DNA from: an uncultured Clostridia bacterium
Lineage (GTDB): Bacteria; Bacillota; Clostridia; UBA1381
Length of the DNA: 64,000 bases
Assembly (NCBI GenBank): GCA_947631235.1
Contig: CANRKO010000005.1
Coordinates: forward strand, 1-64,000
Reading direction: 5' to 3'
This document shows positions 5,464 through 58,888 of this stretch, piece by piece; position 1 is the stretch's first letter, and each line of letters starts with the position of its first letter. Both the position numbers and the translations under genes were made by a program. The notes beneath the pieces are model-generated. The model did no database searches and was not told where the DNA came from. It saw only the letters and a list, made by a program, of their open reading frames with translations.

Positions 5464-7725
5464 TTAATTCGACAGTCTCGCCACGCTTATAACGCCGTGC
5501 AGCTGGAGCAATTTTTTCCGCAGCAGCGCGAGATCCGATGTGTTCCGTATCTCCACGCCAAGCTGTATTATCGCGATTTCGTCCTTGTTTACGTACGCGT
5601 TTACGGACTTGAACGGTATTTTGAGGTTCGCGAGTATGTTTGTGATTTCAAGCAGTACGCCGTCGCGGTTGTGGCACTCTACTTTGAGATTTGCCGTGTA
5701 CGACGTGGAACGCTCGCTGTCCCACATTACTTCTATAAACCGTCCTCTGTCCTCCTCGCTCATAACGTCGGGGTTCATGTTCGGGCAGTCGCGGCGGTGT
5801 ACGCTCACTCCCCTGCCCTTAGTGATAAAGCCGACAATATCGTCGCCCGCGACGGGGTTGCAGCACCGCGCCAGACGCACAAGGCAGTTGTCAATATCCT
5901 TAACGACGATACCCTTGCTCGACGCGTACCGTTTCGCGGGCTCGGCTTCAACGGTCTTGCTTTCCTCGTTGTATACCGCCTCGAGCTTTTTCTTCTGCTC
6001 CTGCTCGCGGTTCTGCTTTATCCATTCCTCGCGCAGTCTCATAACGACCTTCTGCGACGTGAGACCGCCGTAGCCGACGCTCGCGTAAAGGTCGTCGAGC
6101 GTCTGGAAACCGTAACGCTTAATCAGCAGGTTTATCCATTCGGGCTTAAAGAGCTGCTCGTGCGTGTTGCCTATGCGGCGCAAATCACGCTCTATAAGCT
6201 CCTTGCCGCGCTCTATATTCTCGTCGCGCCGCTCGCGCTTGAACCACTGATTTATCTTGTTCTTCGCCGTGGACGTGCGGCAAAGTTTGAGCCAGTCGCG
6301 GCTCGGGCCGTGCGTGTTCGCGGTGAGTATCTCCACGATCTCGCCGTTCTGCACCTGGTAGTTGTTCGGTACTATTTTGCCGTTCACCTTCGCGCCGCTC
6401 ATTTTATATCCGACCTGCGAGTGGATAGCGAACGCGAAGTCTATAACGGTACTGCGCGCCGGCAGCGATATGACTTTGCCCTGCGGCGTGAACACGAACA
6501 CCTCGTCCTCGAACAAATCAAATTTAAGCGTGTTGTAGAAGTCGTCGGTGTCTATGAGGTTCGTCTGCGTGTCGAGCAGCTGCCTTACCCATTCAAGCTT
6601 TGAGTCCATATCGGTCGAACCAGATATGCCTTCTTTATATTTCCAGTGCGCCGCGATACCGTTTTCCGCTATGCGGTGCATCTCCCACGTCCTTATCTGT
6701 ATTTCAAACGGCGTGCCGTTCGGCCCTATGACCGTCGTGTGCAGCGACTGGTACATATTGGGCTTGGGCATCGCGATGTAGTCCTTAAACCGCATCGGCA
6801 CGGGCGTGTACAGGTCGTGTACCATGCCGAGCACGGCATAGCAGTCCGCGACCGTATCGACTATGACGCGTACCGCAAACAGGTCGTAAAGTTCGTCGAG
6901 CGTCTTGTTCTGCGTGTACATCTTGCGGAAAATCGAGTAAAAATGCTTAGCGCGTCCCGTCACCTGACCCTTTATGCCCATTTCTTCAAGCTTTGCGCGG
7001 AGTATATCCATAATATCGCTTATGTATTTTTCGCGCTCCTCTTTTTTCTGGTTTATGCTCTGCCTGATTTCCTCGTACGCCACGGGGTCAAGGTATTTGA
7101 GAGCCAAATCCTCAAGCTCTATTTTAATCTTCGACATACCGAGGCGGTGAGCGAGCGGCGCGTAAACGTCGAGCGTCTCCTTCGATATGAGCAGTTGTTT
7201 CGCGCGCGGCATAAAGTTAAGCGTGCGCATATTATGAAGGCGGTCGATAAGCTTTATTATAACGACGCGTATATCCTTCGCCATCGCAAGGAACATTTTG
7301 CGCAGATTTTCGACCTGCTGCTCCTCACGCGTGTTGTACTGTATTTGTTTGAGGTGTGTAACGCCGTCCACAAGTTCCGCGACGCTCTTGCCGAACAATG
7401 CCTCGATATCCTCGTAGGTGTACGGCGTGTCCTCAACAACGTCGTGCAAAAGAGCCGCACTTATCGCCGTCGCGTCAAGCGAAAGCTGCGACGCGATATA
7501 CGCTATCTGAACGGGATGCTCTATATACGGCGCACCGCTGCGCCTGAACTGGTGCGAGTGCGCCGATTTCGCCAGCCGGTAGGCAACGTAGATAAGGTCG
7601 GTGTTCGCGTTGGGGCTGTAGCCCTTCACGGACTCGATTATTTTGTCCACAAGAACGTCGGTATCGTCAACGTGCTGCGGTATTTTTTCGGGTGAGAGTA
7701 TTACCTGTTCTTTTGTTTCGGGCAT
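5464..7725 (-). CDS. relA: Bifunctional (p)ppGpp synthetase/hydrolase, Rel/SpoT family
   Basis: This 753-aa long-form RSH enzyme makes and degrades (p)ppGpp in the stringent response. It has an HD hydrolase domain (HPVQIAYI.., ALLHDVVEDTPYT, RLHNMRTL), a synthetase domain (TGRAKHFYSIFRKM, RFKDYIAMPKPNMYQSLHTT), a TGS domain (VFTPQGKVISLPARSTVIDFAF), a Cys-containing zinc-finger-type region (LARCCNPVAGDDIVGFIT) and a C-terminal ACT domain. Both catalytic halves look intact. An AAGGAGG site precedes the ATG at 7725. recJ lies 16 nt upstream and the yaaA-like gene 4 nt downstream, so ppGpp metabolism is co-transcribed with recF and gyrB. Confidence 0.96.
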   Translation of the reverse strand: MPETKEQVILSPEKIPQHVDDTDVLVDKIIESVKGYSPNANTDLIYVAYRLAKSAHSHQFRRSGAPYIEHPVQIAYIASQLSLDATAISAALLHDVVEDTPYTYEDIEALFGKSVAELVDGVTHLKQIQYNTREEQQVENLRKMFLAMAKDIRVVIIKLIDRLHNMRTLNFMPRAKQLLISKETLDVYAPLAHRLGMSKIKIELEDLALKYLDPVAYEEIRQSINQKKEEREKYISDIMDILRAKLEEMGIKGQVTGRAKHFYSIFRKMYTQNKTLDELYDLFAVRVIVDTVADCYAVLGMVHDLYTPVPMRFKDYIAMPKPNMYQSLHTTVIGPNGTPFEIQIRTWEMHRIAENGIAAHWKYKEGISGSTDMDSKLEWVRQLLDTQTNLIDTDDFYNTLKFDLFEDEVFVFTPQGKVISLPARSTVIDFAFAIHSQVGYKMSGAKVNGKIVPNNYQVQNGEIVEILTANTHGPSRDWLKLCRTSTAKNKINQWFKRERRDENIERGKELIERDLRRIGNTHEQLFKPEWINLLIKRYGFQTLDDLYASVGYGGLTSQKVVMRLREEWIKQNREQEQKKKLEAVYNEESKTVEAEPAKRYASSKGIVVKDIDNCLVRLARCCNPVAGDDIVGFITKGRGVSVHRRDCPNMNPDVMSEEDRGRFIEVMWDSERSTSYTANLKVECHNRDGVLLEITNILANLKIPFKSVNAYVNKDEIAIIQLGVEIRNTSDLALLRKKLLQLHGVISVARLSN

Positions 7726-48009: not shown

Positions 48010-48768
48010 ATGATCAAAAAAATAATCAAATTGGCGGCGGTGTCTGCCGCTGTGGCGGCTATGGCGTCATGTGCCGCGTCAAACGCGCCCGCGCCGACCG
48101 AAACCGCCTCTCAGGCTGAAAACACGGCGGTAACGGACGCGTCGGACTTCGTTCTGCTCGCGGAAGAAGTACCCGACGCGATAATGGAGATACGGTACTA
48201 TTCCACGTATAACTTTGTCGGCGACAGAATTGACGGCTATGACGAGCCGTGCGCACTTATGACGAAGGAAGCCGCCGCCGCGCTCAAAAACGCGTCGGAC
48301 GACGCTGTGGCAAAGGGCTACAGGCTTAAAATCTACGACGCGTACAGACCACAGACAGCCGTTCAAAACTTTGTCGAGTGGGCGGAGGACACAGACGATA
48401 CGCGCATGAAGGAATATTTCTATCCCGAACTTGACAAGTCGGTGCTGTTCGACCAGGGCTATATCGCCGAAAAGTCGGGTCACAGCAGGGGCAGCACGGT
48501 CGACCTCACGCTGTTTGACATGAGTAAGGGCAAGGAGGTTGACATGGGCGGCACGTTCGACTATTTCGGCGAACTTTCCCACCCCGATTACACCGGCGAG
48601 CTGACGGAGGAGCAGATACAAAACAGAAATATCCTGCGTGATATAATGCTTGAAAATGGCTTTAACCCGCTCGACACGGAGTGGTGGCACTTCACGCTTG
48701 CCGACGAGCCGTACCCCGACACGTATTTTGACTTCCCCGTAAGCGGCAAGTCGGTCGGAGTTAAGTGA
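48010..48768 (+). CDS. D-alanyl-D-alanine dipeptidase, VanX/DdpX family lipoprotein
   Basis: The 252-aa protein has a lipoprotein signal peptide (VAAMASC, lipidated Cys at about 21) and a peptidase M15D domain. Metal and catalytic residues are visible: His158 and Asp165 in SGHSRGSTVDL, and Glu224 and His227 in EWWHF. VanX-type enzymes split D-Ala-D-Ala. Membrane-anchored forms outside vancomycin clusters are thought to recycle wall peptides. No vanH or vanA genes are nearby, so resistance is not implied. The next gene is an NlpC/P60 wall hydrolase. Confidence 0.9.
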   Translation: MIKKIIKLAAVSAAVAAMASCAASNAPAPTETASQAENTAVTDASDFVLLAEEVPDAIMEIRYYSTYNFVGDRIDGYDEPCALMTKEAAAALKNASDDAVAKGYRLKIYDAYRPQTAVQNFVEWAEDTDDTRMKEYFYPELDKSVLFDQGYIAEKSGHSRGSTVDLTLFDMSKGKEVDMGGTFDYFGELSHPDYTGELTEEQIQNRNILRDIMLENGFNPLDTEWWHFTLADEPYPDTYFDFPVSGKSVGVK

Positions 48769-48789
48769 TTGCCCGTCGGAGCGCGGAGC

Positions 48790-48808
48790 GTTTCACACCG
48801 TGTGAAGC
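48790..48808. repeat. Short palindrome downstream of the VanX-like gene
   Basis: TTCACAC and GTGTGAA face each other across one base, inside a GC-rich context just before the next promoter. It could be a protein-binding site or a weak terminator stem. Confidence 0.45.
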
Positions 48809-48824
48809 GGCGTTTACGCACAAA

Positions 48825-48856
48825 GTATTGATTTTTTGATTAAAATATGGTATAAT
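48825..48856 (+). promoter_or_regulatory. Promoter of the NlpC/P60-partner-switch operon
   Basis: The -35 TTGATT (48828-48833) and -10 TATAAT (48851-48856) are 17 bp apart. The 21 bases from 48825 match 56598-56618, in front of the second STAS-kinase gene, at 20 positions. Confidence 0.75.
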
Positions 48857-48913
48857 TGTTGTATATGGACTATATTTTTGCCGCCGCGCAAGGCGGCAAA
48901 GGGAGATAGCAAA

Positions 48914-50491
48914 ATGAAATTAAAAGCCATTGTTGCCGCGCTTACAGCGGCAGCCGTCATTTCGCCCGCAGCGTACGCGGCGGAGGACGCAGTATACATA
49001 TGCGCGTATTACAACGACAGCGGAGCGCTCATAGACGCGAAGCAGTTTAACGAAAGCGAGCTTAAAAACGTACTCGACTCGCTCGCCCCCGACGACGCGG
49101 CAAAGGCGAAGCTGTTCCAATGGAACGATAATCTGCAGCCCGTGGGCGAAATGATTGTGTCGGATTACACGCGCGGAGCGGGCGACGTGCTTAACAACAT
49201 GGACAGCACGGTTAAAGCTTTGAACGTTACGAGCGAGATGTGCGCCGCGTCGTTCTGGCACAACAAGGAAAATTGCTCGGACGAAATTGTTATGACGGCG
49301 GATGAAATCGCGGCGTTTAACCGCAAAATCCTTGATACTTCGGCTACCTGCACTAATGATTTGGAGTCGGTAGGGGCAAACGAAATGTACAACGGCGTAT
49401 CTCTTGCCCAAAGCTGCGCGGATGAGATTGTGTCAAGAAATCTGTACCTGAACGGAGAACCCGTTCCCGAAAGCTATTACGAGACTATCCGTGAAAACAT
49501 CAGAAACGCGGACGTTACAACCGCGATGCCGTACAAATTCGGTTTTGCGGTAAACAGGACGGTTATGAAGGCGTACCCGTACGAGGACTACCTCTCCGAC
49601 GACCCCACAGACCCCGAATGGGATGAACTTGTCAACACGGGCGTAGCCGTGAACGAGCCGCTTGTGCTGCTGTTTGCGACAGAGGACGGCAAATTTACCT
49701 TGGCGAGAAGTCAATGCTGCACCGGCTGGGTCCCGACGGAGGATATAGCCGTTTGTGCCGATAAGGCGGAATGGGAAAAATACTTAAATCCCGATAAATT
49801 CCTCGTTGTGACGGGCGAGAAGGTGTATCTCGAGCCGAGCGCGGACGCGGATTTGAACGAGAAAATGCTCACAATGGGAACGGTGCTGCCGCTCGTGACG
49901 GATGAGACCGGCACTGTGTCGTACAGGCTGCCGTGGAACAATTACGTCGTTAAAATGCCCGCGAGGAACGAGGACGGAAGCTTTTACCAAAAGGACGCTC
50001 TCATTCCGGCGAACCGCGACGTGAACGTCGGCTACCTCCCCTACTCGACCGCTAACGTTGTCACTCAGGCTTTTAAGTCGCTCGGCAACCGCTACGGCTG
50101 GGGCGGTATGATGAATTCGCAGGACTGCTCGTCGTTCGCGCGCGAGGTGTACCGCTGTTTCGGTTTTGAACTGCCGAGAAACACGACATGGCAGTCGGCA
50201 ATGCCGGCGGAAGTGACGGTTATGAGCAGTATGACGGACGGCGAAAAGAAAGCCGTTCTCGACACTCTTCCGGCGGGAACGATACTGATATTCCCGGGGC
50301 ATGAAATGCTCTACCTCGGCAAAGACAACGGTCTGTACTACACGATAAACGACGTAAGTTCGCTCGTTTCACCCGAGCAGCCCGGCGTGATTATAAAACC
50401 GAGGAGCGTCATAGTGAACGACCTCTCGACGCTCCGCGCCAACGGCTCTACGTGGCTCGCGAATTTAAGCCACGCGGTGGTTGTAAAATAA
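48914..50491 (+). CDS. Secreted NlpC/P60 endopeptidase with SH3-like domain
   Basis: The 525-aa protein begins with a signal peptide (MKLKAIVAALTAAAVISPAAYA). A long N-terminal helical domain and an SH3b-like part (about 215-370) precede an NlpC/P60 domain with catalytic Cys405 (RYGWGGMMNSQDCSSFAREVY) and His463 (FPGHEMLYLG). Such enzymes cut the D-Glu to diamino-acid bond of wall peptides. The ATG at 48914 has AAAGGGAG upstream. The STAS-kinase gene starts 17 nt after its stop, so a wall hydrolase is co-transcribed with the partner-switch genes. Confidence 0.9.
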   Translation: MKLKAIVAALTAAAVISPAAYAAEDAVYICAYYNDSGALIDAKQFNESELKNVLDSLAPDDAAKAKLFQWNDNLQPVGEMIVSDYTRGAGDVLNNMDSTVKALNVTSEMCAASFWHNKENCSDEIVMTADEIAAFNRKILDTSATCTNDLESVGANEMYNGVSLAQSCADEIVSRNLYLNGEPVPESYYETIRENIRNADVTTAMPYKFGFAVNRTVMKAYPYEDYLSDDPTDPEWDELVNTGVAVNEPLVLLFATEDGKFTLARSQCCTGWVPTEDIAVCADKAEWEKYLNPDKFLVVTGEKVYLEPSADADLNEKMLTMGTVLPLVTDETGTVSYRLPWNNYVVKMPARNEDGSFYQKDALIPANRDVNVGYLPYSTANVVTQAFKSLGNRYGWGGMMNSQDCSSFAREVYRCFGFELPRNTTWQSAMPAEVTVMSSMTDGEKKAVLDTLPAGTILIFPGHEMLYLGKDNGLYYTINDVSSLVSPEQPGVIIKPRSVIVNDLSTLRANGSTWLANLSHAVVVK

Positions 50492-50508
50492 TATGGAGGA
50501 AAAATTAT

Positions 50509-51684
50509 ATGAAACATTCTTACAGCGACGGCATTTTGACAATCAAATTATTGAAAAGAATAGACTCTAACAACGCGTCCGAGGTCGATAAGGAATTGTT
50601 CGCGGCGATTGAAAAAAGCAGCGCGAAAAGCGTTATTCTCGACGCGGCTGACACCGAATATATTTCGAGCGCGGGGTTAAGAGTTGTGTTAAAGCTAAAA
50701 AAAGCGGTAGCCGACTCGAAAATAATAAACGCCTCGCCCGAGGTGTACGATATTTTCAGCATGACGGGCTTTATCGACATTATCGACGTGAAAAAGGCGT
50801 TCCGCGAGGTTTCCGTCGAGGGCTGCGAAATTATAGGCAAGGGCGGTCACGGCACGGTTTACCGCCTTAACGGCGACACCATATTAAAAATGTACGCCGA
50901 AACGGAACCGCTTGCCGAGATAGAGCGTGAGATCGAGTACGCCAGAAACGCGTTTGTCGCGGGTATTCCGACGGCTATCGCGTTTGACGTGGTTAAGTGC
51001 GGCAACTGCTACGGCTCGGTATTTGAACTTATAAACGCCGATACGCTCGGTAACCTACTTGCCGCGAACCCCGACAGATACGACGAGTATTCAAAGAAGT
51101 ATATCGAGCTTGTGAACACGCTCCACACCACCGAGGCGGACACGAGCCGCCTGTCAAACATAAAGGGCTTGTACAACCAATGGGCTGACGAAATGGCTGA
51201 ACTGCTTACGGCTGACGAAATAGGTATTCTTCACGAGATAATAAACAGCGTTCCGGACAGGAACACGTTCGTACACGGCGATATTCACCCGCAAAACGTA
51301 ATGGTTCAGGACGGCGAACTTGTGTTTATCGACCTTGCCGATATGACGTACGGTCACCCCGTTTTCGATTATATGGGCATGGCGCTCACGCACGTGATCG
51401 CGGGCAGCAGAGCGCCGCAAAGGTCGGTGCAGATAATGGGCATAGACTACGATACGGGCGTAAGGCTGTGGAACGATATGATAAAGGCGCGTTTCGGCTC
51501 TTTGGGCGAGGAAGGCTTGAAGAAGATGAACGGTCTTTTGACGGCGTTCGGTATGATGAAATTCACCGTCGCGTCAGCCGTGAACAAGACAAATACCCGC
51601 GAACTCAAAGAAACGCTTATAAAGATAAGCAGACAGACATTCTTCCCGAATGCAAAGAACTTAATCGGCGCGGTAAAATTCTGA
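50509..51684 (+). CDS. STAS domain fused to APH-like phosphotransferase, copy 1
   Basis: This 391-aa protein joins a STAS (anti-sigma antagonist) domain (residues 1-95, with LDAADTEYISSAGLRVVLKL) to a kinase-like domain of the TIGR02172/aminoglycoside-phosphotransferase type. The latter has a glycine loop IIGKGGHGTVYRL (108-120), the catalytic VHGDIHPQN (255-263) and the metal motif FIDLAD. The ATG at 50509 follows GGAGG by 9 nt. The ISSAG serines are normal STAS phosphorylation sites. The kinase substrate is unknown; it could be the STAS domain itself, its partners, or a small molecule. A paralog with the same layout is at 56672-57859. Confidence 0.88.
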   Translation: MKHSYSDGILTIKLLKRIDSNNASEVDKELFAAIEKSSAKSVILDAADTEYISSAGLRVVLKLKKAVADSKIINASPEVYDIFSMTGFIDIIDVKKAFREVSVEGCEIIGKGGHGTVYRLNGDTILKMYAETEPLAEIEREIEYARNAFVAGIPTAIAFDVVKCGNCYGSVFELINADTLGNLLAANPDRYDEYSKKYIELVNTLHTTEADTSRLSNIKGLYNQWADEMAELLTADEIGILHEIINSVPDRNTFVHGDIHPQNVMVQDGELVFIDLADMTYGHPVFDYMGMALTHVIAGSRAPQRSVQIMGIDYDTGVRLWNDMIKARFGSLGEEGLKKMNGLLTAFGMMKFTVASAVNKTNTRELKETLIKISRQTFFPNAKNLIGAVKF

Positions 51685-51755
51685 TTATACCCGCAAACAA
51701 CGTATTAAATTTATATTATATAATTTAATGAATAAAAAATAAGGAGAGATTTGTA

Positions 51756-52052
51756 ATGACAATCAAACAGACAAACGAAAGCGAAAAATTAACGCTCGCA
51801 TTATCGGGCAGACTCGACACGGTGACTGCTCCCGAACTTGAGACGGTTATCGACACGGCTCTGGGCGGCGCGACGGAACTTTGTTTCGACTTCACCGACC
51901 TCGAATACATCTCATCGGCGGGACTTCGCGTACTCTTAAAGGCGCAGAAAATTATGAATGCAAAGGGTAAGATGACAATTACCGGCGTTAACGAAACGAT
52001 TATGGAAGTGTTCGATATTACCGGCTTTGTCGATATTCTTACAATCGAGTAA
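51756..52052 (+). CDS. STAS-domain anti-sigma factor antagonist
   Basis: This is a 98-aa single STAS domain of the SpoIIAA/RsbV type, with CFDFTDLEYISSAGLRVLLKAQKIM containing the conserved phosphorylatable serine pair. It follows the STAS-kinase gene by 71 nt (an AT-rich palindrome and a TATAAT lie in this gap, so extra transcription may begin here) and precedes the phosphatase/kinase sensor by 23 nt. It is the natural substrate for both enzymatic domains of that sensor. Confidence 0.93.
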   Translation: MTIKQTNESEKLTLALSGRLDTVTAPELETVIDTALGGATELCFDFTDLEYISSAGLRVLLKAQKIMNAKGKMTITGVNETIMEVFDITGFVDILTIE

Positions 52053-52075
52053 TTCGATAAAAGGAAGTGTATCCG

Positions 52076-54907
52076 ATGGTTTTTACACTTATACTTACAG
52101 CTCTGTACAACGCGATTTTGGCGGTGCTTATATACATCGCCGAAAAAAAGACCGCATTCGGACGAATCGGGCGTAAAAAGAAACAGATAATTATAGGTAT
52201 TCTGTTCGGCGCGATGGCTGCGTTCGCAAGCACGAGCATCGCGGGCGTGGATATAGGCGACGGCACGATTATGAACGTCCGCGACGCGGCTCCGCTATGC
52301 GCGGGACTTATTTTCGGCGCGCCCGCAGGTATTATCGCCGGTATCATAGGCGGACTGTACCGATATATATCCGCGTTCTTCGGGCTTACGGGGGCGTACA
52401 CGCAGCTTGCATGCTCCATCTCCACAATGCTAGCCGGATTTATCGCGGCGGCGTTGAGGAAATTCATGTTCGACGACAAAAAGCCGGGCTGGATCTACGG
52501 TCTCGGTATCGGCATGATTTGTGAAGTCATACATATGCTGATGATTTTCTTCACGAACGCGAACGACCCGAGTACCGCGTTCGGTTTCGTGAAGGTATGC
52601 TCGCTGCCGATGATGCTTTGCAACGGCTTTTCGGTCGGCGCGGCTGTGCTTGTAATATCGCTGCTCGGTAAGGACAGGGACGCCGTGCAGTTCGGCAAAA
52701 GGCATATTTCGCGGACGTTCCAGACGTGGCTGTTTATATGTATCGTCGTGGCATACGTGCTGACGAGCACGTACACCTATATGCTGCAGAGCCAGATGTC
52801 CAACACGGAGACGGAAACGGTCATAAAGACGAGCATCGACGACGTTAATCAGGATATTCAGGATACGTCGGACGAAAATCTGCTCAATAAAACAAACCTC
52901 ATAAAGAGCGACTATATCGCGTCAAACAATAAAAGCGAGGAATTTCTGCAGTCGCTCGCGGACAAGTACAACGTCGCGGAAATTCATATTATCGACGATA
53001 ACGGCATAATCGTGAACACAAACGTTCCGCATTACATCGGCTTCGATATGGCAAGCGGCGAGCAGTCGGCTGAATTTCTCGTACTCCTTGACGGCACGCA
53101 TAAGTCGTTCGCGCAGGAGTACCGTCCGCAGTCATACGACAGCAGCGTCGCGTACAAATACGGCGGCGTGGCGCTCCAGGGCGGCGGATTTTTACAGGTC
53201 GGCTACGACGCGAGCGAGTTCAGAGCAGATATTGACAGCACCGTTAAAAAAATAGCGACAAACCGCCACATAGGCGAAAACGGTTTTATCGTGATATGTG
53301 ACGAAGAGTGGAACATAGTCAGCGAGGGAACGGATTACACCGGCTACAACCTCGCGAGCCTCGGCATATGGGTCGATACCGAAAAGTACGCGGAAAACAC
53401 CATATTCAGTACCGAATTTAACGGCAAGCCGTATCTGGGCGAATATGAGTTCGCGGAAGGTTACTATATTGTCGGAGTAATCGGCGAGGAAGAGGCGCTG
53501 TTTATGCGCGACGTTTCGGTGTATCTGAGTTCGTTTATGGAAGTGCTGATTTTCGCGGCTCTGTTCGCACTCGTGTACTTCCTTATAAAGAAACTTATCA
53601 TAGACAATCTGACCGAAGTAAACCGTGCGCTCTCAAAAATCACGAACGGTAACCTCGACGTTACCGTGGACGTGCGCGACAACGAGGAATTCGCGTCGCT
53701 GTCGGACGATATTAACTCCACGGTAGACACGCTGAAACGCTACATCTCCGAGGCAGAGGCGCGTATCGACGCGGAACTTGAATTCGCGAAACAAATTCAG
53801 AGTTCGGCTCTGCCGTCCGTGTTCCCGCCCTACCCCAACCGCAGGGAATTTGACATCTACGCTCAAATGGATACCGCAAAAGAGGTCGGCGGCGATTTCT
53901 ACGACTTCTATATGCTCGACGACTCGACGATAGCGTTCCTTATCGCGGATGTGTCGGGTAAGGGTATTCCCGCGGCGATGTTTATGATGAAGGCTAAGAC
54001 CATTATAAAAGACCTCGCGGAAAGCGGTTTGGAGGTAAACGACATATTCACGCAGGCGAACGCAAAGCTGTGCGAAAACAATGACGCGGGTATGTTCGTG
54101 ACGGCGTGGATGGCGATAGTAGATTTAAAAACGGGCGTTATGAGCGTCGCGAACGCAGGACACAACCCGCCCGTCATAAAGCGCGCAAACGGTGAATTCG
54201 CGTACGAGAAACAGCGCGCAGGCTTTGTTCTCGCGGGTATGGAGGGACTTAAATACAGAAAGACCGAAATACAGCTATCCCCCGGCGACCAAATTTACCT
54301 TTACACCGACGGCGTTACCGAGGCGACCGACAAGGACGACGGGCTTTACGGCGAGGACAGACTTGTCGATTTCTTAAACACGCTCGCCGACACCGACGTA
54401 AAATCGATCTGCGAGGAAGTAAAGCGCGACATAGACCGTTTCGTCGGCGACGCGCCGCAGTTTGACGATATTACGATGGTAAGCTTTAAGATAAACTTTA
54501 TAAAGGGCGACAATAAACTATCGTTTATCCCCGGTAGGGACGCGGGCGTTGCCGTGAGCGATTTCGCGCAGCAGATTACGTCAAAGCTCGATGTGCTCCC
54601 GAAAATTTCGAGCAAGGTGAGCATCGCTATTGACGAGATCGCCTCGAATATAATCAATTACAGCAAGGCGAAAACCGCCGAGATTTCATACTCGATAGAA
54701 AACGATAAGCTGAATTTGACGTTTGAGGACGACGGTCAGCCGTATAACCCGCTTGAAACGGAGGATCCCGACATAACGCTGTCAGCCGAGGAACGGCAAA
54801 TCGGAGGTCTTGGGATTTTCATGGTTAAGAAAATGACCGAGAGCATGGATTACAAATATGAAAACAATAAAAATATTTTAAAGCTTGTGATGGCTTTAAA
54901 CTCATAA
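52076..54907 (+). CDS. Membrane sensor with SpoIIE phosphatase and RsbW-like kinase domains
   Basis: This 943-aa protein has a 5TM-LYT type membrane domain (about residues 1-200), another helix (215-235), a dCache-like extracellular sensor (240-480), a helix (485-510), HAMP (510-565), a PP2C/SpoIIE phosphatase (580-790; VGGDFYDFYMLDD, IADVSGKGIPAAMFM, VANAGHNPP, YTDGVTEATD) and a GHKL ATPase (805-940; IAIDEIASNIINYS, FEDDGQPYNP, GGLGIFMVKK). It should therefore both dephosphorylate and phosphorylate STAS proteins. ATG 52076 is preferred over GTG 52067, since AAAGGAAG lies 8 nt before it. Confidence 0.92.
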   Translation: MVFTLILTALYNAILAVLIYIAEKKTAFGRIGRKKKQIIIGILFGAMAAFASTSIAGVDIGDGTIMNVRDAAPLCAGLIFGAPAGIIAGIIGGLYRYISAFFGLTGAYTQLACSISTMLAGFIAAALRKFMFDDKKPGWIYGLGIGMICEVIHMLMIFFTNANDPSTAFGFVKVCSLPMMLCNGFSVGAAVLVISLLGKDRDAVQFGKRHISRTFQTWLFICIVVAYVLTSTYTYMLQSQMSNTETETVIKTSIDDVNQDIQDTSDENLLNKTNLIKSDYIASNNKSEEFLQSLADKYNVAEIHIIDDNGIIVNTNVPHYIGFDMASGEQSAEFLVLLDGTHKSFAQEYRPQSYDSSVAYKYGGVALQGGGFLQVGYDASEFRADIDSTVKKIATNRHIGENGFIVICDEEWNIVSEGTDYTGYNLASLGIWVDTEKYAENTIFSTEFNGKPYLGEYEFAEGYYIVGVIGEEEALFMRDVSVYLSSFMEVLIFAALFALVYFLIKKLIIDNLTEVNRALSKITNGNLDVTVDVRDNEEFASLSDDINSTVDTLKRYISEAEARIDAELEFAKQIQSSALPSVFPPYPNRREFDIYAQMDTAKEVGGDFYDFYMLDDSTIAFLIADVSGKGIPAAMFMMKAKTIIKDLAESGLEVNDIFTQANAKLCENNDAGMFVTAWMAIVDLKTGVMSVANAGHNPPVIKRANGEFAYEKQRAGFVLAGMEGLKYRKTEIQLSPGDQIYLYTDGVTEATDKDDGLYGEDRLVDFLNTLADTDVKSICEEVKRDIDRFVGDAPQFDDITMVSFKINFIKGDNKLSFIPGRDAGVAVSDFAQQITSKLDVLPKISSKVSIAIDEIASNIINYSKAKTAEISYSIENDKLNLTFEDDGQPYNPLETEDPDITLSAEERQIGGLGIFMVKKMTESMDYKYENNKNILKLVMALNS

Positions 54908-54931
54908 AACACGGAAAGAAGGAATAAAAAC

Positions 54932-55546
54932 ATGAAAACGGATATTTGCACGATTTCGAGCGACAAGGAAACATTCGGCGCGATATTTACCGAGGTTGAA
55001 AAGTCAGTCGATTACAACAAGCTTCCGAAGAAGCAAGCGCTTCAGTTAAGACTTCTCGCGGAGGAGCTTGTGGGTATGCTGCCCGAGCTTTTGGAAGTCG
55101 GCGACGGTAAGTTCTGGATCGAGAATGAAGGGAACAACTTCGAACTGCACGCGTCAATCAAGGCGGAGCGTCTGTCGATGTTTGATAAGGAGGACATTCT
55201 CTCCCTTTCAAAATCGGGTAAAAACGCCGCGTCCAAGGGAATTATAAACAAAATACGTCTCGTTGCCGAGGGTATGCTTGACGGCTACCTCGAAGCATCA
55301 AAGGTGTCGGGCGGCGGCGAATATTACGACATCTACGACATGGGCGTATGCTCCGCGAACGCGTATGACGACAGGTGGCTCCACGCGTGGTCGCTTAGCA
55401 GCTACAAGGACTGCGCCGGCGACAACAAGGACGGCGACGCCTGGGATGAGCTTGAAAAATCCATAATCGCCAACCTCGCGGACGACGTTATCGTCGGCGT
55501 TATCGGCAGAAACGTGGATATTGTAATTAAAAAGAAGTTCGCATAA
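54932..55546 (+). CDS. Unrecognised 204-aa protein of the partner-switch operon
   Basis: No domain is clear. The N-terminal half (KKQALQLRLLAEELVGMLPELLEVGDGKFWIENEGNNFELHASI) resembles the start of a GHKL ATPase with an N-box-like AEEL helix followed by a beta strand, but the ATP-lid glycine motifs are not evident. It may be a degenerate RsbW-like binding module. The rest is acidic and ends in KKKFA. It starts 24 nt after the sensor gene and ends before a strong terminator, so it belongs to the same operon. The function is unknown. Confidence 0.75.
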   Translation: MKTDICTISSDKETFGAIFTEVEKSVDYNKLPKKQALQLRLLAEELVGMLPELLEVGDGKFWIENEGNNFELHASIKAERLSMFDKEDILSLSKSGKNAASKGIINKIRLVAEGMLDGYLEASKVSGGGEYYDIYDMGVCSANAYDDRWLHAWSLSSYKDCAGDNKDGDAWDELEKSIIANLADDVIVGVIGRNVDIVIKKKFA

Positions 55547-55555
55547 AGGGACATA

Positions 55556-55589
55556 AAAAAAACAGACCGCAGGGGCGGTCTGTTTTTTT
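55556..55589. terminator. Bidirectional terminator
   Basis: A 14-bp stem (55556-55569 with 55576-55589) has a 6-nt loop and A/T-run flanks. It closes both the partner-switch operon and the converging phosphatase gene. Confidence 0.9.
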
Positions 55590-55592
55590 GCG

Positions 55593-56519
55593 TTATTCAA
55601 GAAATTTATCTCGCAATGCGGTTATATCTTCGTCCGTTAAGCCGAGACCCTCGGTGAGATAATTTTTAACCGTGCCGTACTCCGCTTTAACGCCGTCAAT
55701 CGCGGTGTTAAAGAAATCCTCGTATACGGCGATGGCTGTTCCGACGTATTCCTTCGTTTCGTCCTCGGTAAGACCAAGCTCCGCCGCATGTGCCTCGCTC
55801 CCTGCAATCCGATCCTTGTTGTACGCGTCGTTTGTCAGGAGATAGTCCTGTTTAATAGTGTCCTCGTCCGCGCCGAGCGCGTACAAAAGCAGCACGGCAG
55901 CCATTCCGGCTCTGTCCTTACCCTGCGTGCAGTGCCACAAAACAGCCTCTCCGTCGCCGACGGTGAGAAGCTTATCGAAAAACTCCGAGTATGCCTTTTT
56001 GCCCTCGTCTGTCAGGAGCATTTTTGAATATATCGTCGAAAGACCATGATGCTTTGCGAGAGTTATGTATGCCAGCTCGGGGTCGTTCGTCTTTCTTGCC
56101 TCCATTATCGCAGCCACTGTTTCATCGTCGTACAGTGACGATGTGAACACCGGCAGCCATACGTTTTCCGCACCCTCGACCTCTTTGTCGGGCAGCACAT
56201 TGCGCTCCGTTTCCGTTCTGAAGTCGAACACATACCTTAAATGATACTTGTCGGCGAGCGTTTCCGCGCCCTCGTCCGTAAGTGTGGACAGCGCGGCACT
56301 CCTTAAAAGCACGCCGTCCTTTATCTTCCGACCGTCGGCGCATACGTAGCCGCCGAGCTGACGTGCGTTGCCCACACCGTCAATCTCTATCGCCTGCGTT
56401 TCGAGCGAAACGGTCGGAGGCTGTTCCTCCTTTTCCTGCGTTACCCCGCCCGAGCACGCGGCGGTCAAAATAACCGACGACGCAGCCAAAACCGTTACCG
56501 CCCGCTTTATATTATTCAT
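55593..56519 (-). CDS. Tyrosine/serine protein phosphatase (DSP family) lipoprotein
   Basis: The 308-aa protein has a lipoprotein signal (VILTAACSGG, lipidated Cys near 22) and a Y_phosphatase3-type domain. It begins with GNARQLGGYVCADGRKIKDGVLLRSA and carries the P-loop HCTQGKDRAGMAA (CxxGKDRxG). Relatives dephosphorylate phosphotyrosine, phosphoserine or phosphoinositides. The protein would act outside the membrane. It lies between the two STAS-kinase arms, in the opposite direction. Confidence 0.9.
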   Translation of the reverse strand: MNNIKRAVTVLAASSVILTAACSGGVTQEKEEQPPTVSLETQAIEIDGVGNARQLGGYVCADGRKIKDGVLLRSAALSTLTDEGAETLADKYHLRYVFDFRTETERNVLPDKEVEGAENVWLPVFTSSLYDDETVAAIMEARKTNDPELAYITLAKHHGLSTIYSKMLLTDEGKKAYSEFFDKLLTVGDGEAVLWHCTQGKDRAGMAAVLLLYALGADEDTIKQDYLLTNDAYNKDRIAGSEAHAAELGLTEDETKEYVGTAIAVYEDFFNTAIDGVKAEYGTVKNYLTEGLGLTDEDITALRDKFLE

Positions 56520-56562
56520 TTGATAATCCCTCCTTTGTGAGCATCAATATTTTTACATTATA

Positions 56563-56591
56563 ATTATATATCCGTTTATATAATTTTGCAA
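56563..56591 (-). promoter_or_regulatory. Promoter of the phosphatase gene
   Basis: The minus-strand -35 is TTGCAA (56586-56591) and the -10 TATAAT (plus 56563-56568), with a 17-bp spacer. It is back to back with the promoter of STAS-kinase copy 2. Confidence 0.7.
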
Positions 56592-56597
56592 GATTTT

Positions 56598-56629
56598 GTA
56601 TTGATTTTTTGAATAAAACGGAGTAAAAT
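56598..56629 (+). promoter_or_regulatory. Promoter of STAS-kinase copy 2
   Basis: The -35 TTGATT (56601-56606) and -10 TAAAAT (56624-56629) are 17 bp apart. The block 56598-56618 matches 48825-48845 at 20 of 21 positions. Confidence 0.75.
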
Positions 56630-56671
56630 TAGAAAAGGATTTACTGAAATTATATGATGGGGAGAAATGAA

Positions 56672-57859
56672 ATGGAACACACATACAATGACGGAGTTTT
56701 AACAATCAGCTTGTACGAAAGAACGGACTCGACCAACGCCGACGCGGTTGAAAACGAAATATTTAACCTTGTGCGTGAGTGCGGCGCAAAAAGCGTCGTG
56801 CTTGACGCGGCGGACACAAAGTACATATCGAGCGCGGGGCTTAGAGTTATACTAAAGCTGAAAAAGACGATAGATAATTCAAAGGTTATAAACGCGTCGC
56901 CCGAGGTGTACGAGATATTTGAAATAACGGGGTTCGCCGAGATAATCGGCATAGAGAAGGCTCTGCGTGAAATATCCGTCGAGGGCTGTGAAAAAATCGG
57001 CGAGGGCGGGTTCGGAATAGTGTACCGCCTTGACGATGAAACCATTGTGAAGATATACAAGTCAGCCGGAACGGACACGATAAAGCGCGAGATGAATTAT
57101 GCGAAACAGGCGTTTATAAAGGGCGTTCCGACGGCGATTTCATACGATATGGTAAAGTGCGGCGACCGTTACGGCGTGGTGTTCGAACTTATAAAGTCCG
57201 ACACGCTGGCGAACGCGCTTACCGCCAATCCCGAAAAATTCGACGAGTACGCGGAGAAATATATAAATCTGGTAAAGACCGTACATTCCACGGACGTGAG
57301 CGATATTATTTCCGCGCGCGCAAACGACTTGTACCGCGACACGTTCGCCAAGATAAAAAAATATCTGACGGACGAGGAATACGCCGAACTTATGCGCCTT
57401 TTTGACGCGATACCCGACAGGAACACGATGGTTCACGGCGATTTGCACGCGCGAAACATTATGATTCAAAACGGCGAACTGCTGCTTATCGACATGGATG
57501 AGATAATGTGCGGACACCCGATATACGACCTGTGCAATATTTATTACGCGTACACCGAGATGCCAAAGCGCGGCGACGCGGACACAATTCGGTATCTCGG
57601 CATAAGCGCGGATATGTGCAAAAGACTTGTCGAAAAGTTCAACGAAAAATATTTCGGAGGTCTCACTGACGACCGGTTCAAGGCTGCGGTTGACGGCATG
57701 AACGTGTTCGCGCAAATGCGGTACGCGTATCTGCGCCTTATCGTAAATAGCAAAGTCAGTTCATATGAGGAAAGAGTAAAAGGCGTGGTGCAAAGTATTA
57801 AGGATGTAATACTTCCGCAGATCGATACCGCGATCAAGTCGCTCGAATTTATAGGCTGA
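56672..57859 (+). CDS. STAS domain fused to APH-like phosphotransferase, copy 2
   Basis: This 395-aa protein is a clear paralog of the 50509-51684 product. The STAS domain contains LDAADTKYISSAGLRVILKL, then come a glycine loop KIGEGGFGIVYRL, the catalytic VHGDLHARN (254-262) and LLIDMDE. The copies are similar throughout, which points to a duplication of the whole fusion. The ATG at 56672 has GGGGAG 7 nt upstream; an ATG at 56654 overlaps that site. It stands alone between its promoter and a terminator. Two fusions with different kinase surfaces could respond to different signals through the same STAS partner network. Confidence 0.88.
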   Translation: MEHTYNDGVLTISLYERTDSTNADAVENEIFNLVRECGAKSVVLDAADTKYISSAGLRVILKLKKTIDNSKVINASPEVYEIFEITGFAEIIGIEKALREISVEGCEKIGEGGFGIVYRLDDETIVKIYKSAGTDTIKREMNYAKQAFIKGVPTAISYDMVKCGDRYGVVFELIKSDTLANALTANPEKFDEYAEKYINLVKTVHSTDVSDIISARANDLYRDTFAKIKKYLTDEEYAELMRLFDAIPDRNTMVHGDLHARNIMIQNGELLLIDMDEIMCGHPIYDLCNIYYAYTEMPKRGDADTIRYLGISADMCKRLVEKFNEKYFGGLTDDRFKAAVDGMNVFAQMRYAYLRLIVNSKVSSYEERVKGVVQSIKDVILPQIDTAIKSLEFIG

Positions 57860-57863
57860 CACA

Positions 57864-57897
57864 AAAAATCCCCGTTTGCGTGCAAACGGGGATTTTT
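57864..57897. terminator. Bidirectional terminator
   Basis: A perfect 16-bp stem (57864-57879 with 57882-57897) has a 2-nt loop and A/T-run flanks, between the converging STAS-kinase and PAP2 genes. Confidence 0.92.
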
Positions 57898-57904
57898 GAT
57901 GTGC

Positions 57905-58888
57905 TTATTTGTTTTCGGTCTTTTTCGGTACAAATTTTAAGATAAGTTCCGTCAACGCCGGCGCACCCGCTACGAAGTAGCACACGCGTACAAACTCGGC
58001 AAGCGCCTTTGTAACGCCGGAGTTCCAGCCCGCCGCGATAAGCGCGTTCGCGCCGACTCCCGCGAAGTGGTCGAGTGCGGTGTATGTAAACACGCAGAAT
58101 ATAAGTCTTATGATATTTGCGGTGTTATCGTCGGTCGAGAATTTTATAAACCGTCTTTCGATGAACCAGCCTATGAAAAAGCCTATACCCATACCGGCGT
58201 TTTTAAATGAGTCAACAGCCATTTTCGAACCTTCGACTATTACCGAGCCGTCGGCGACGTAATCCGTCGGGTACGACTTTAAAGCCGCGTAAAGTATAAG
58301 CAGCGCGCATAGAGCCACACCGCCGAGCATTACCCATATATCCATATTCGGACGCTCGTCGATAATCGGCATAAGCTTTGACATCAGAAACAGCACCACC
58401 GCGCCTATAACGAGCGCTACCACAACGTCCTGCGGCGTGTGAACGCCGAGGTAGTTTCTCGAAAACGCTATGAGCAGTACGAGTATTATCAGTATGACGG
58501 AAAACCATTTCGGGCATTTAACGCCGTCCTTTGCGGGAATAGCCGTTCCGCCCCATACGCTCGTCGCGTTCGCTGTGTGACCGCTCGGGAACGAGTAACC
58601 CGTCGCGTCAGCCTTAGCCTCGGGAACGGGCGTAATACGCGCGTCGCGTATCCACGGACGGTACACGCACGCCGTTATTTTGATGAAGCCGTTTATTATT
58701 CTGTTTGTGTAGAGCGAGAACATTAAAAATATTCCCTGTTTTTTGTTGAGACCCCAGTAAACCAAGCCGACGAAGAACACGATTATCGACGTTTCGCCCA
58801 GCTTTGTTATGTACTCGAAAAACGTGTTGAGGACGCCTCCCGTCGCGTCGCGCAGATTTTGCAGCGCAAGTAAGTAATTGATATCCAT
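57905..58888 (-). CDS. PAP2-family membrane phosphatase
   Basis: The 327-aa integral membrane protein carries the type 2 phosphatidic acid phosphatase signature in order: KITACVYRPWIRDARI (KX6RP-like), GYSFPSGHTANA (PSGH) and SRNYLGVHTPQDV (SRX5HX3D). Such enzymes hydrolyse lipid phosphates, for example undecaprenyl pyrophosphate or phosphatidic acid, at the membrane surface. The extended C-terminal part with several more helices is unusual and unassigned. Upstream genes on the same strand encode other phosphate- and wall-related enzymes. Confidence 0.9.
   Translation of the reverse strand: MDINYLLALQNLRDATGGVLNTFFEYITKLGETSIIVFFVGLVYWGLNKKQGIFLMFSLYTNRIINGFIKITACVYRPWIRDARITPVPEAKADATGYSFPSGHTANATSVWGGTAIPAKDGVKCPKWFSVILIILVLLIAFSRNYLGVHTPQDVVVALVIGAVVLFLMSKLMPIIDERPNMDIWVMLGGVALCALLILYAALKSYPTDYVADGSVIVEGSKMAVDSFKNAGMGIGFFIGWFIERRFIKFSTDDNTANIIRLIFCVFTYTALDHFAGVGANALIAAGWNSGVTKALAEFVRVCYFVAGAPALTELILKFVPKKTENK

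Follow-up and report, generated by a model that had tools for sequence, protein, structure and literature searches.

A putative sigma-independent partner-switching circuit of STAS-APH fusion proteins in an uncultured Clostridia bacterium

What might two kinases that carry a STAS domain be doing in a gene cluster that holds no sigma factor? The question is raised by a locus in the window analysed here, a stretch of 64,000 nucleotides (contig C5, bases 1-64000) from the genome of an uncultured Clostridia bacterium (2.09 Mb, 16 contigs, 86% complete). The locus comprises six genes: fusA and fusB, each encoding a STAS domain fused to an APH-type phosphotransferase, a gene for a free STAS protein, a gene for a membrane sensor, p204 (named after its product of 204 amino acids) and a PTP phosphatase gene. 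Partner switching is mostly taught as sigma-factor control, and its enzymatic core consists of SpoIIE domains that dephosphorylate, and RsbW-type GHKL domains that phosphorylate, a serine of a STAS domain. As judged from its gene content, the locus is very probably a partner-switching module. For its function we lean towards a circuit that works independently of a sigma factor and has an enzyme activity as its output, in which the sensor would set the phosphorylation of STAS domains and thereby gate the APH kinases fused to them. All six genes are open, and Pfam confirms the STAS-APH fusions, the free STAS protein, the sensor and the phosphatase just as a first-pass annotation of this DNA had described them; p204 was without a match in Pfam or NCBIfam. 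Genomes, contigs, loci and families are labelled below with G, C, L and f.

The sensor carries a 5TM-5TMR_LYT domain (residues 34-195; 2.2e-25), a SpoIIE domain (619-809; 1.5e-50) whose match spans positions 2-191 of the 192 in the model, and a HATPase_c_2 domain (829-941; 2e-14) in which the E-x-x-S-N, DDG and GGLG motifs of the N, G1 and G2 boxes are kept, as seen by eye; a HAMP match at residues 510-557 is weak and below its cut-off. By domain identity, an RsbU-like phosphatase and an RsbW-like kinase are both predicted in this one chain, so that the RsbU- and RsbW-type proteins once thought to be missing from the locus are found fused in its sensor. It is the sole protein found in the host genome, at 86% completeness, that has STAS-type phosphatase and kinase domains together. 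Its best NCBIfam match is NF038263 (SiaA), with 77 bits vs a cut-off of 700, and among the Pfam and NCBIfam matches listed for the six locus proteins there was none to GGDEF or SiaB.

Both fusions are recognized by the Pfam models of STAS (2.9e-12 for fusA, 3.2e-12 for fusB) and APH (1.3e-17 and 9.8e-16, respectively), and they are 43% identical to each other. TIGR02172, the family by which they had been labelled, is indeed the best NCBIfam match of both (3.2e-30 and 6.7e-30), but with 105-107 bits vs a cut-off of 228.2 membership is not reached; the name denotes a relative of the fusions and not their family. The key residues of fusA are the presumed acceptor Ser54, the ATP lysine K127, and the catalytic D258, N263 and D275, the last being the metal Asp. 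The choice of Ser54 over Ser53 as the acceptor is our assumption from alignment to Ser58 of SpoIIAA. When 54 fusions were aligned, the acceptor position was a serine in all 51 that have a letter there, K127 was kept in 54/54, and D258, N263 and D275 in 53/53 each; Glu141 (52/54) and the second His of the catalytic loop (51/53) are less strict. The ISSAG serines and the HGD catalytic loop, already pointed out for the two window fusions, are present in both and conserved across relatives, and ISSAG occurs in the free STAS protein of the window as well.

Within the order, 16 of the 95 genomes hold a fusion (two-row fusion profile, E <= 1e-20, the window's genome included); an even sample of 391 genomes of the class gave 22 (E <= 1e-25), and a sample of 398 genomes of the phylum gave 3 (E <= 1e-30). 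The raw profile matches numbered 17, 26 and 6. One APH-only match (G012) was removed from the order count; two APH matches without STAS (G203, G226) and two STAS-only matches with a stop (G374, G393) from the class count; and three matches without STAS (G203, G226, G693) from the phylum count. The seven loci of relatives that belong to named genomes all come from uncultured Clostridia bins with isolate names in 'Lapin', which we read as rabbit gut.

Support for a functional module comes from the conservation of the neighbourhood. The order fusA-STAS-sensor-p204 is whole in G023, G024, G025, G027, G008 and G009, is truncated by contig ends in G028 and G029, and is found also in G371, a genome of another family; fusB keeps its divergent PTP neighbour in relatives. 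Domains were mapped in 64 loci with profiles built in this analysis, and neighbours were counted for 54 fusion open reading frames from 35 genomes, without fragments missing either domain and without L213 and L214. A gene is called near if it lies within 6 kb, and a locus well-flanked if its contig extends 3 kb or more beyond it on either side. Among the 34 well-flanked fusions, SpoIIE was near in 23, free STAS in 22, p204 in 15, PTP in 15 and a MATE transporter with a GHKL-like domain (MATE-GHKL) in 5; GHKL was near or fused in 23 and HD_4 in 5. Over all 54 fusions the corresponding numbers were 27, 27, 17, 20 and 6, and 29 and 7. A sigma-like gene, sought with three sigma queries, was near one of the 54 and near none of the 34. 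With three SpoIIE genes in 2.09 Mb, and taking this density as typical, the chance of a SpoIIE gene near a given locus is about 2%. A lack of co-conservation had been set beforehand as one half of the refuting check on the first-pass annotation, and this half did not refute it: the genes do stay together, in the eight relatives and G371 as well as in the SpoIIE count.

Since many of the 54 fusion loci belong to one syntenic cluster, the fairer count is that of the 19 class-sample genomes outside the window's family, where SpoIIE was near in 11 and GHKL near or fused in 13. Diverged fusions (30-44% identical to fusA) keep the linkage, in different gene orders and as triple fusions: STAS, APH and GHKL occur in one chain at nine loci (L076, L077, L139, L142, L144, L147, L148, L151 and L213), of which L213 is from another class of the phylum, and for L076, the one triple fusion submitted, Pfam confirms all three domains. 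L079 encodes an HD_4-STAS-APH protein adjoining a SpoIIE-GHKL protein. The PTP had been described as a secreted phosphatase between the two arms of the locus; it does lie there, and because it is near 15 of the 34 well-flanked fusions it is not merely sitting between them. Its linkage to STAS-APH genes extends to diverged genomes, and sometimes its family members lack an obvious export signal, by eye (L068, 275 amino acids; L075, 274; L141, 287).

From these domain identities, the following sequence of events can be proposed. The membrane sensor would receive a signal from outside; its SpoIIE domain would dephosphorylate, and its GHKL domain phosphorylate, the conserved STAS serine, the probable substrates being the free STAS protein and the STAS tags of fusA and fusB. 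The phosphorylation state would decide the binding of STAS and in this way gate the APH in cis, and the APH would then phosphorylate a small molecule or a protein, not STAS. p204, as a GHKL-fold partner of STAS whose ATP site is lost, would sense the STAS state without a kinase role, and the free STAS protein together with p204 would pass the signal elsewhere or buffer it. That STAS is fused to APH suggests control in cis, which we regard as rather likely. At 23 of the 34 well-flanked loci a GHKL domain lies near the fusion or is part of it, so that the job of STAS kinase would already be taken there, which makes the APH more likely the output.

The place of p204 in this scheme is suggested by its neighbours and by its predicted fold. 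All 13 family members scanned were without a Pfam match and without a match to a GHKL family, and gave one weak NCBIfam match (SagB, 0.0059). With p204 profiles, the family was found in 15 of the 95 genomes of the order and in 30 of the 391 of the class sample, one place being fetched in each of 20 of these 30. Free STAS or SpoIIE was near in 34 of 40 p204 loci examined and in 26 of 30 that are well-flanked. Some of these loci had been fetched for their fusion, so the figure for loci without one is cleaner: STAS or SpoIIE was near in 15 of 19 well-flanked p204 loci that have no STAS-APH gene near, or in 14 of 18 without L083, where a contig end truncates the fusion. p204 is linked to STAS and SpoIIE even there, and it therefore belongs to the STAS/SpoIIE module and not to the fusion as such. 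Across the 391 genomes, 24 have a fusion or an APH match (only G374 and G393 being removed for this comparison), 30 have p204 and 15 have both (Fisher p 3e-13, a test that ignores kinship).

In a structure search of 350,542 chains, ranks 1-9 for p204 were all anti-sigma entries (SpoIIAB, UsfX, another anti-SigF complex and RsbW), with a probability of 0.72-0.87, E of 0.14-0.59 and a TM-score by query length of 0.29-0.41, on a poor model. The order of helices and strands resembles that of GHKL domains, and it is from the fold match and this order that the GHKL reading of p204 is drawn. The N-box Asn is absent from the 13-residue LRL..EE.. stretch in all those p204 proteins where the stretch was located (35 of 37), and no conserved DxG box was seen by eye in an alignment of 13 rows. 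On this modelling evidence, p204 is probably a GHKL-like partner of STAS without kinase activity. Separately, a tandem duplication of p204 in one protein of about 400 amino acids was observed at L210:4965-6164, L211:4974-6173 and L212:4714-5961, each beside a free STAS gene, and G008 has a second p204-STAS pair (L065:5932-6971) with no sensor beside it, 1.2 kb from fusB.

Several observations weigh against the proposed circuit. fusB lies clearly away from the sensor in G008, G009 and G371, and contig ends leave their separation open in G023 and G029. Around nine of the 34 well-flanked fusions, nothing encoding STAS, SpoIIE or GHKL lies within 6 kb, with MATE-GHKL genes uncounted, and both SpoIIE and GHKL are missing near the fusion in six of the 19 class-sample genomes from other families (G109, G196, G271, G283, G301 and G348). 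In G271 a MATE-GHKL gene stands beside the fusion, and in G301 a contig end truncates the locus; in G109, G196 and G283 a sensor built in the same way is encoded next to p204 at another place in the genome (L200, L199 and L194, respectively), so that control in trans is possible there. The loci are not independent, many of them representing one syntenic cluster in one genus. The predicted model of fusA is weak (pLDDT 60) and silent on the STAS-APH interface. That of p204, made with five close sequences, is poor (mean pLDDT 49, pTM 0.45); none of its 188 structure matches reached E <= 0.001, and its profile gave a non-significant hhalign probability of 2.5% against the GHKL set. Against the MATE-GHKL, STAS, APH, SpoIIE, HD_4 and PTP sets it was not significant either, the highest value being 5.3% for HD_4.

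The linkage itself might have another origin. The STAS domain of the fusions could be a docking or dimerisation part that is never phosphorylated, with the APH acting constitutively on a small molecule and the genes linked through shared transfer of an island. Indeed, G371 belongs to family f19 and the window's genome to f1, and yet the identity of their proteins is 87% for fusA, 85% for STAS, 85% for the sensor, 80% for p204, 85% for PTP and 78% for fusB, and 80%, 85% and 74% for the neighbouring M15, PAP2 and NlpC proteins (loci L137 and L138 compared with window 48010-58888). These values of 74-87% contrast with 51% for FtsZ (by eye) and 53% for the MutS encoded on the fusB contig of G371 (by eye), the latter being 58% identical to that of four genomes of G371's family. 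For the fusB arm, the island thus seems to have moved horizontally between families, and transfer is preferred over misbinning because this MutS is nearer to G371's own family; the MutS check covers the fusB contig, which might yet be chimeric, and the fusA of G371 is on another contig, C39. The nine well-flanked fusions without switch genes would also fit a constitutive enzyme. However, the acceptor serine is invariant (51/51), and the linkage recurs with diverged fusions, in varied orders and in triple fusions, which the transfer of a single island would not give. We consider an unphosphorylated STAS part unlikely.

Less probable still is that the APH is itself the STAS kinase, as had been suggested earlier, and phosphorylates Ser54 in its own STAS domain or in that of the sister fusion, with the sensor's SpoIIE domain reversing the reaction. 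The direct fusion of APH to STAS would suit such a role, and the glycine loop (G-x-G-x-x-G-x-V-Y) and invariant lysine of the APH part are in our reading as near to protein kinases as to sugar or drug kinases. Both kinds are also represented among its sequence and structure matches, the latter from a weak model: hygromycin-B kinase, APH enzymes, YihE, choline and methylthioribose kinases, and protein kinases. Against it stand the presence of a GHKL kinase, nearby or fused, at 23 of the 34 well-flanked loci, the nine STAS-APH-GHKL chains, where a second STAS kinase would be superfluous, and the APH domains fused to HD_4 without STAS (L158, L159). We therefore hold to the APH as the presumed output of the circuit.

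A role of the module in sporulation, where its STAS proteins would compete for SpoIIAB and so free SigF, draws on a spoIIA-like operon on the same contig (C5 68.3-69.8 kb, about 10.5-12 kb beyond fusB) and is very improbable in view of the lack of a sigma-like gene near any of the 34 well-flanked fusions with the three sigma queries, the module's own GHKL kinase and the mere 21% identity of its free STAS protein to SpoIIAA. The absence of a sigma factor, stated by the first-pass annotation, is true of the locus, but this operon (SpoIIAA, a GHKL gene where SpoIIAB would be expected, and SigF; C5 68342-69825, L051) begins some 4.3 kb beyond the window; the scores of SpoIIAA and SigF fall slightly short of their equivalog cut-offs. 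The sporulation set is the only other set of phosphatase, GHKL and STAS proteins found in the host genome. Six STAS domains score over the cut-off there (SpoIIAA, the free STAS protein, fusA, fusB, L052 and L053), as do two GHKL domains for HATPase_c_2 (the sensor and the gene beside SpoIIAA, taken as SpoIIAB), next to three weaker matches. The three SpoIIE genes are the sensor, the sporulation SpoIIE (TIGR02865 1.4e-137, 459.9 bits vs a cut-off of 490.8) and a 391-amino-acid protein on C1.

Two further functions were tried and rejected. As to drug resistance, the aminoglycoside APH models of NCBIfam gave about 22 bits or less vs cut-offs of 205-725 (22 bits vs 680 for the best of these models). 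As to anti-phage defence, PADLOC was run on seven proteins, and its sole match was a weak partial one of fusA to MkoA (19 bits, 5e-5).

The features of the locus are collected in Table 1. The gaps between fusA, STAS, sensor and p204 measure 71, 14 and 24 bases, and together with the strong stem-loop after p204 they fit one transcript from fusA to p204; fusB is divergent from the PTP gene, with about 150 bases between them. The true start of the sensor may be the ATG at 52076 instead of 52067, and for fusB the start at 56672, downstream of a GGGGAG motif, is judged from the sequence the most likely one. A promoter and terminator scan is given little weight, as it missed both clear stem-loops; it returned 20 promoter-like sites vs 10.6 (standard deviation 3.0) in shuffles and 20 terminator-like sites vs 15.8 (standard deviation 4.0). 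Hints at the APH substrate that can be drawn from gene context are the PTP-family phosphatase, the cell-wall peptidase and PAP2 genes close to fusB-type genes and, in other lineages, a RelA/SpoT-type HD domain.

Table 1. Coordinates of the switch locus and its linked neighbours in the window
Feature	Position	Strand	Evidence or remark
M15 peptidase and NlpC/P60 genes	48010..50491	+	Linked neighbours; found next to fusA or fusB in relatives too
fusA, STAS-APH fusion, 391 amino acids	50509..51684	+	Pfam, NCBIfam, alignment
Free STAS protein (RsbV-like), 98 amino acids	51756..52052	+	Pfam STAS; TIGR00377 69.7 bits, above cut-off 53.45
Membrane sensor, 946 amino acids	52067..54907	+	5TM-LYT, weak HAMP, SpoIIE, HATPase_c_2
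p204, 204 amino acids	54932..55546	+	Family without Pfam match
15-bp stem-loop with A and T runs, terminator-like for both strands	55556..55589	.	-22.8 kcal/mol, z -6.4
PTP, Y_phosphatase3, intact HCx5R, N terminus lipoprotein-like by eye	55593..56519	-	Pfam 1.9e-62
fusB, second STAS-APH fusion	56672..57859	+	Pfam; alternative start 56654
Terminator-like stem-loop 3' of fusB	57864..57897	.	-23.7 kcal/mol, z -7.0
PAP2 phosphatase gene	57905..58888	-	Recurs beside fusions and p204; linked neighbour

Other proteins of the host genome and its relatives carry similar parts. L052:1322-2599 (on C10) and L053:5971-7215 (on C1) encode proteins of about 420 amino acids whose C-terminal STAS domain shares 44-46% identity with the free STAS protein, and a similar protein of about 415 amino acids with a C-terminal STAS is found at L152:858-2099. 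The N-terminal part of L052 and L053 gave no match in Pfam or among solved structures, and from its sequence pattern we read it as a putative class I S-adenosylmethionine methyltransferase; the N-terminal part of L152 looks like one as well. MATE transporters with a C-terminal GHKL-like domain were observed at L054:2386-4248 (on the host's own C7), L142:2209-3990, L148:4158-5912, L153:7098-8867 and L069:1668-3485. Pfam HATPase_c_2 is over its cut-off in L142, L148 and L153, just below it in L069 and weak in L054, and the set matches the GHKL profile with an hhalign probability of 98.6%. In the host's own MATE-GHKL protein the N-box Asn and the DxG box look lost, by eye. L133:590-2377 is similar to this set, but Pfam gives MatE alone.

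HD_4 domains of the RelA/SpoT type are adjacent or fused to STAS-APH or APH genes at L074:8101-8664, L079:1656-3389, L158:5586-7061 and L159:5480-6973, and occur near fusions in L139, L140, L144, L149 and L150 and near p204 in L201; the HD domain of L074 matches TIGR00691 (4.3e-24). A possible meaning of this association is a link to alarmones. The window itself encodes, on the minus strand at 5464-7725, a 753-amino-acid protein with a RelA/SpoT-type HD_4, which might be the housekeeping Rel enzyme. It is tempting to speculate, tentatively, that partner switching serves gut Clostridia as a general post-translational control bus: one sensor would write the state of STAS tags on several enzymes (the two APH kinases and the two methyltransferase-like STAS fusions), GHKL folds without an ATP site (p204 and the MATE tails) would read it, and in other lineages a RelA/SpoT-type HD domain would be reached, tying the bus to alarmone metabolism.

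If the circuit is as proposed, hardly studied gut bacteria would possess a direct phospho-controlled enzyme switch, with an antagonist domain welded to a metabolic or signalling kinase and with phosphatase and kinase combined in one sensor. The locus yields a testable site, Ser54, as well as the p204 family without a Pfam match (13/13 scanned), and it opens a way to learn what APH-type kinases do outside resistance. No report of STAS-APH fusions, or of MATE-GHKL fusions with STAS, was found in the full-text literature searched, whose coverage leaves out preprints and most subscription papers.

Among known systems, several already work without a sigma factor, and the earlier view that partner switching is known only with one does not hold: SiaABCD (PMC7647112) as well as SypA/SypE and BtrV (PMC8256260) are such cases. 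In SiaABCD of P. aeruginosa, the PP2C phosphatase SiaA and the kinase SiaB set the phosphorylation of T68 in SiaC, which resembles anti-sigma factor antagonists (PMC7647112) and activates the diguanylate cyclase SiaD, not a sigma factor (PMC7647112, PMC8457831). The locus described here is like SiaABCD in having a phosphatase, a kinase and an enzyme as the presumed output. Unlike SiaC, which binds SiaD in trans, its STAS domain forms one protein with the enzyme taken as the output, an APH kinase; phosphatase and kinase reside in one chain, and the genome holds several STAS-tagged proteins. SypE of Vibrio fischeri and PA3346 of P. aeruginosa, whose STAS partner is PA3347, are each one protein with serine kinase and phosphatase functions that acts on a STAS protein (PMC8256260). 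They resemble our sensor, which combines both domains beside a STAS gene, whereas the STAS partners SypA and PA3347 are STAS-only, the words 'fusion' and 'fused' being absent from that review. With RsbU-RsbV-RsbW-SigB and SpoIIE-SpoIIAA-SpoIIAB-SigF the locus shares a SpoIIE phosphatase, a STAS domain with a conserved serine and a GHKL kinase, and it differs from them in being without a sigma factor, in the fusion of phosphatase and kinase, and in the fusion of STAS to APH. The APH parts keep the catalytic loop, lysine and metal Asp of TIGR02172 and of other APH-fold kinases (hygromycin-B kinase, YihE, choline and methylthioribose kinases); unlike TIGR02172 proteins, the window fusions score under the cut-off and are fused to STAS. 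The distinct circuit proposed by the first-pass annotation is therefore to be narrowed: switching without a sigma factor is as such not new, and what sets this locus apart is a putative partner-switching type without one that is built on STAS-APH fusions, with both enzyme domains in its sensor.

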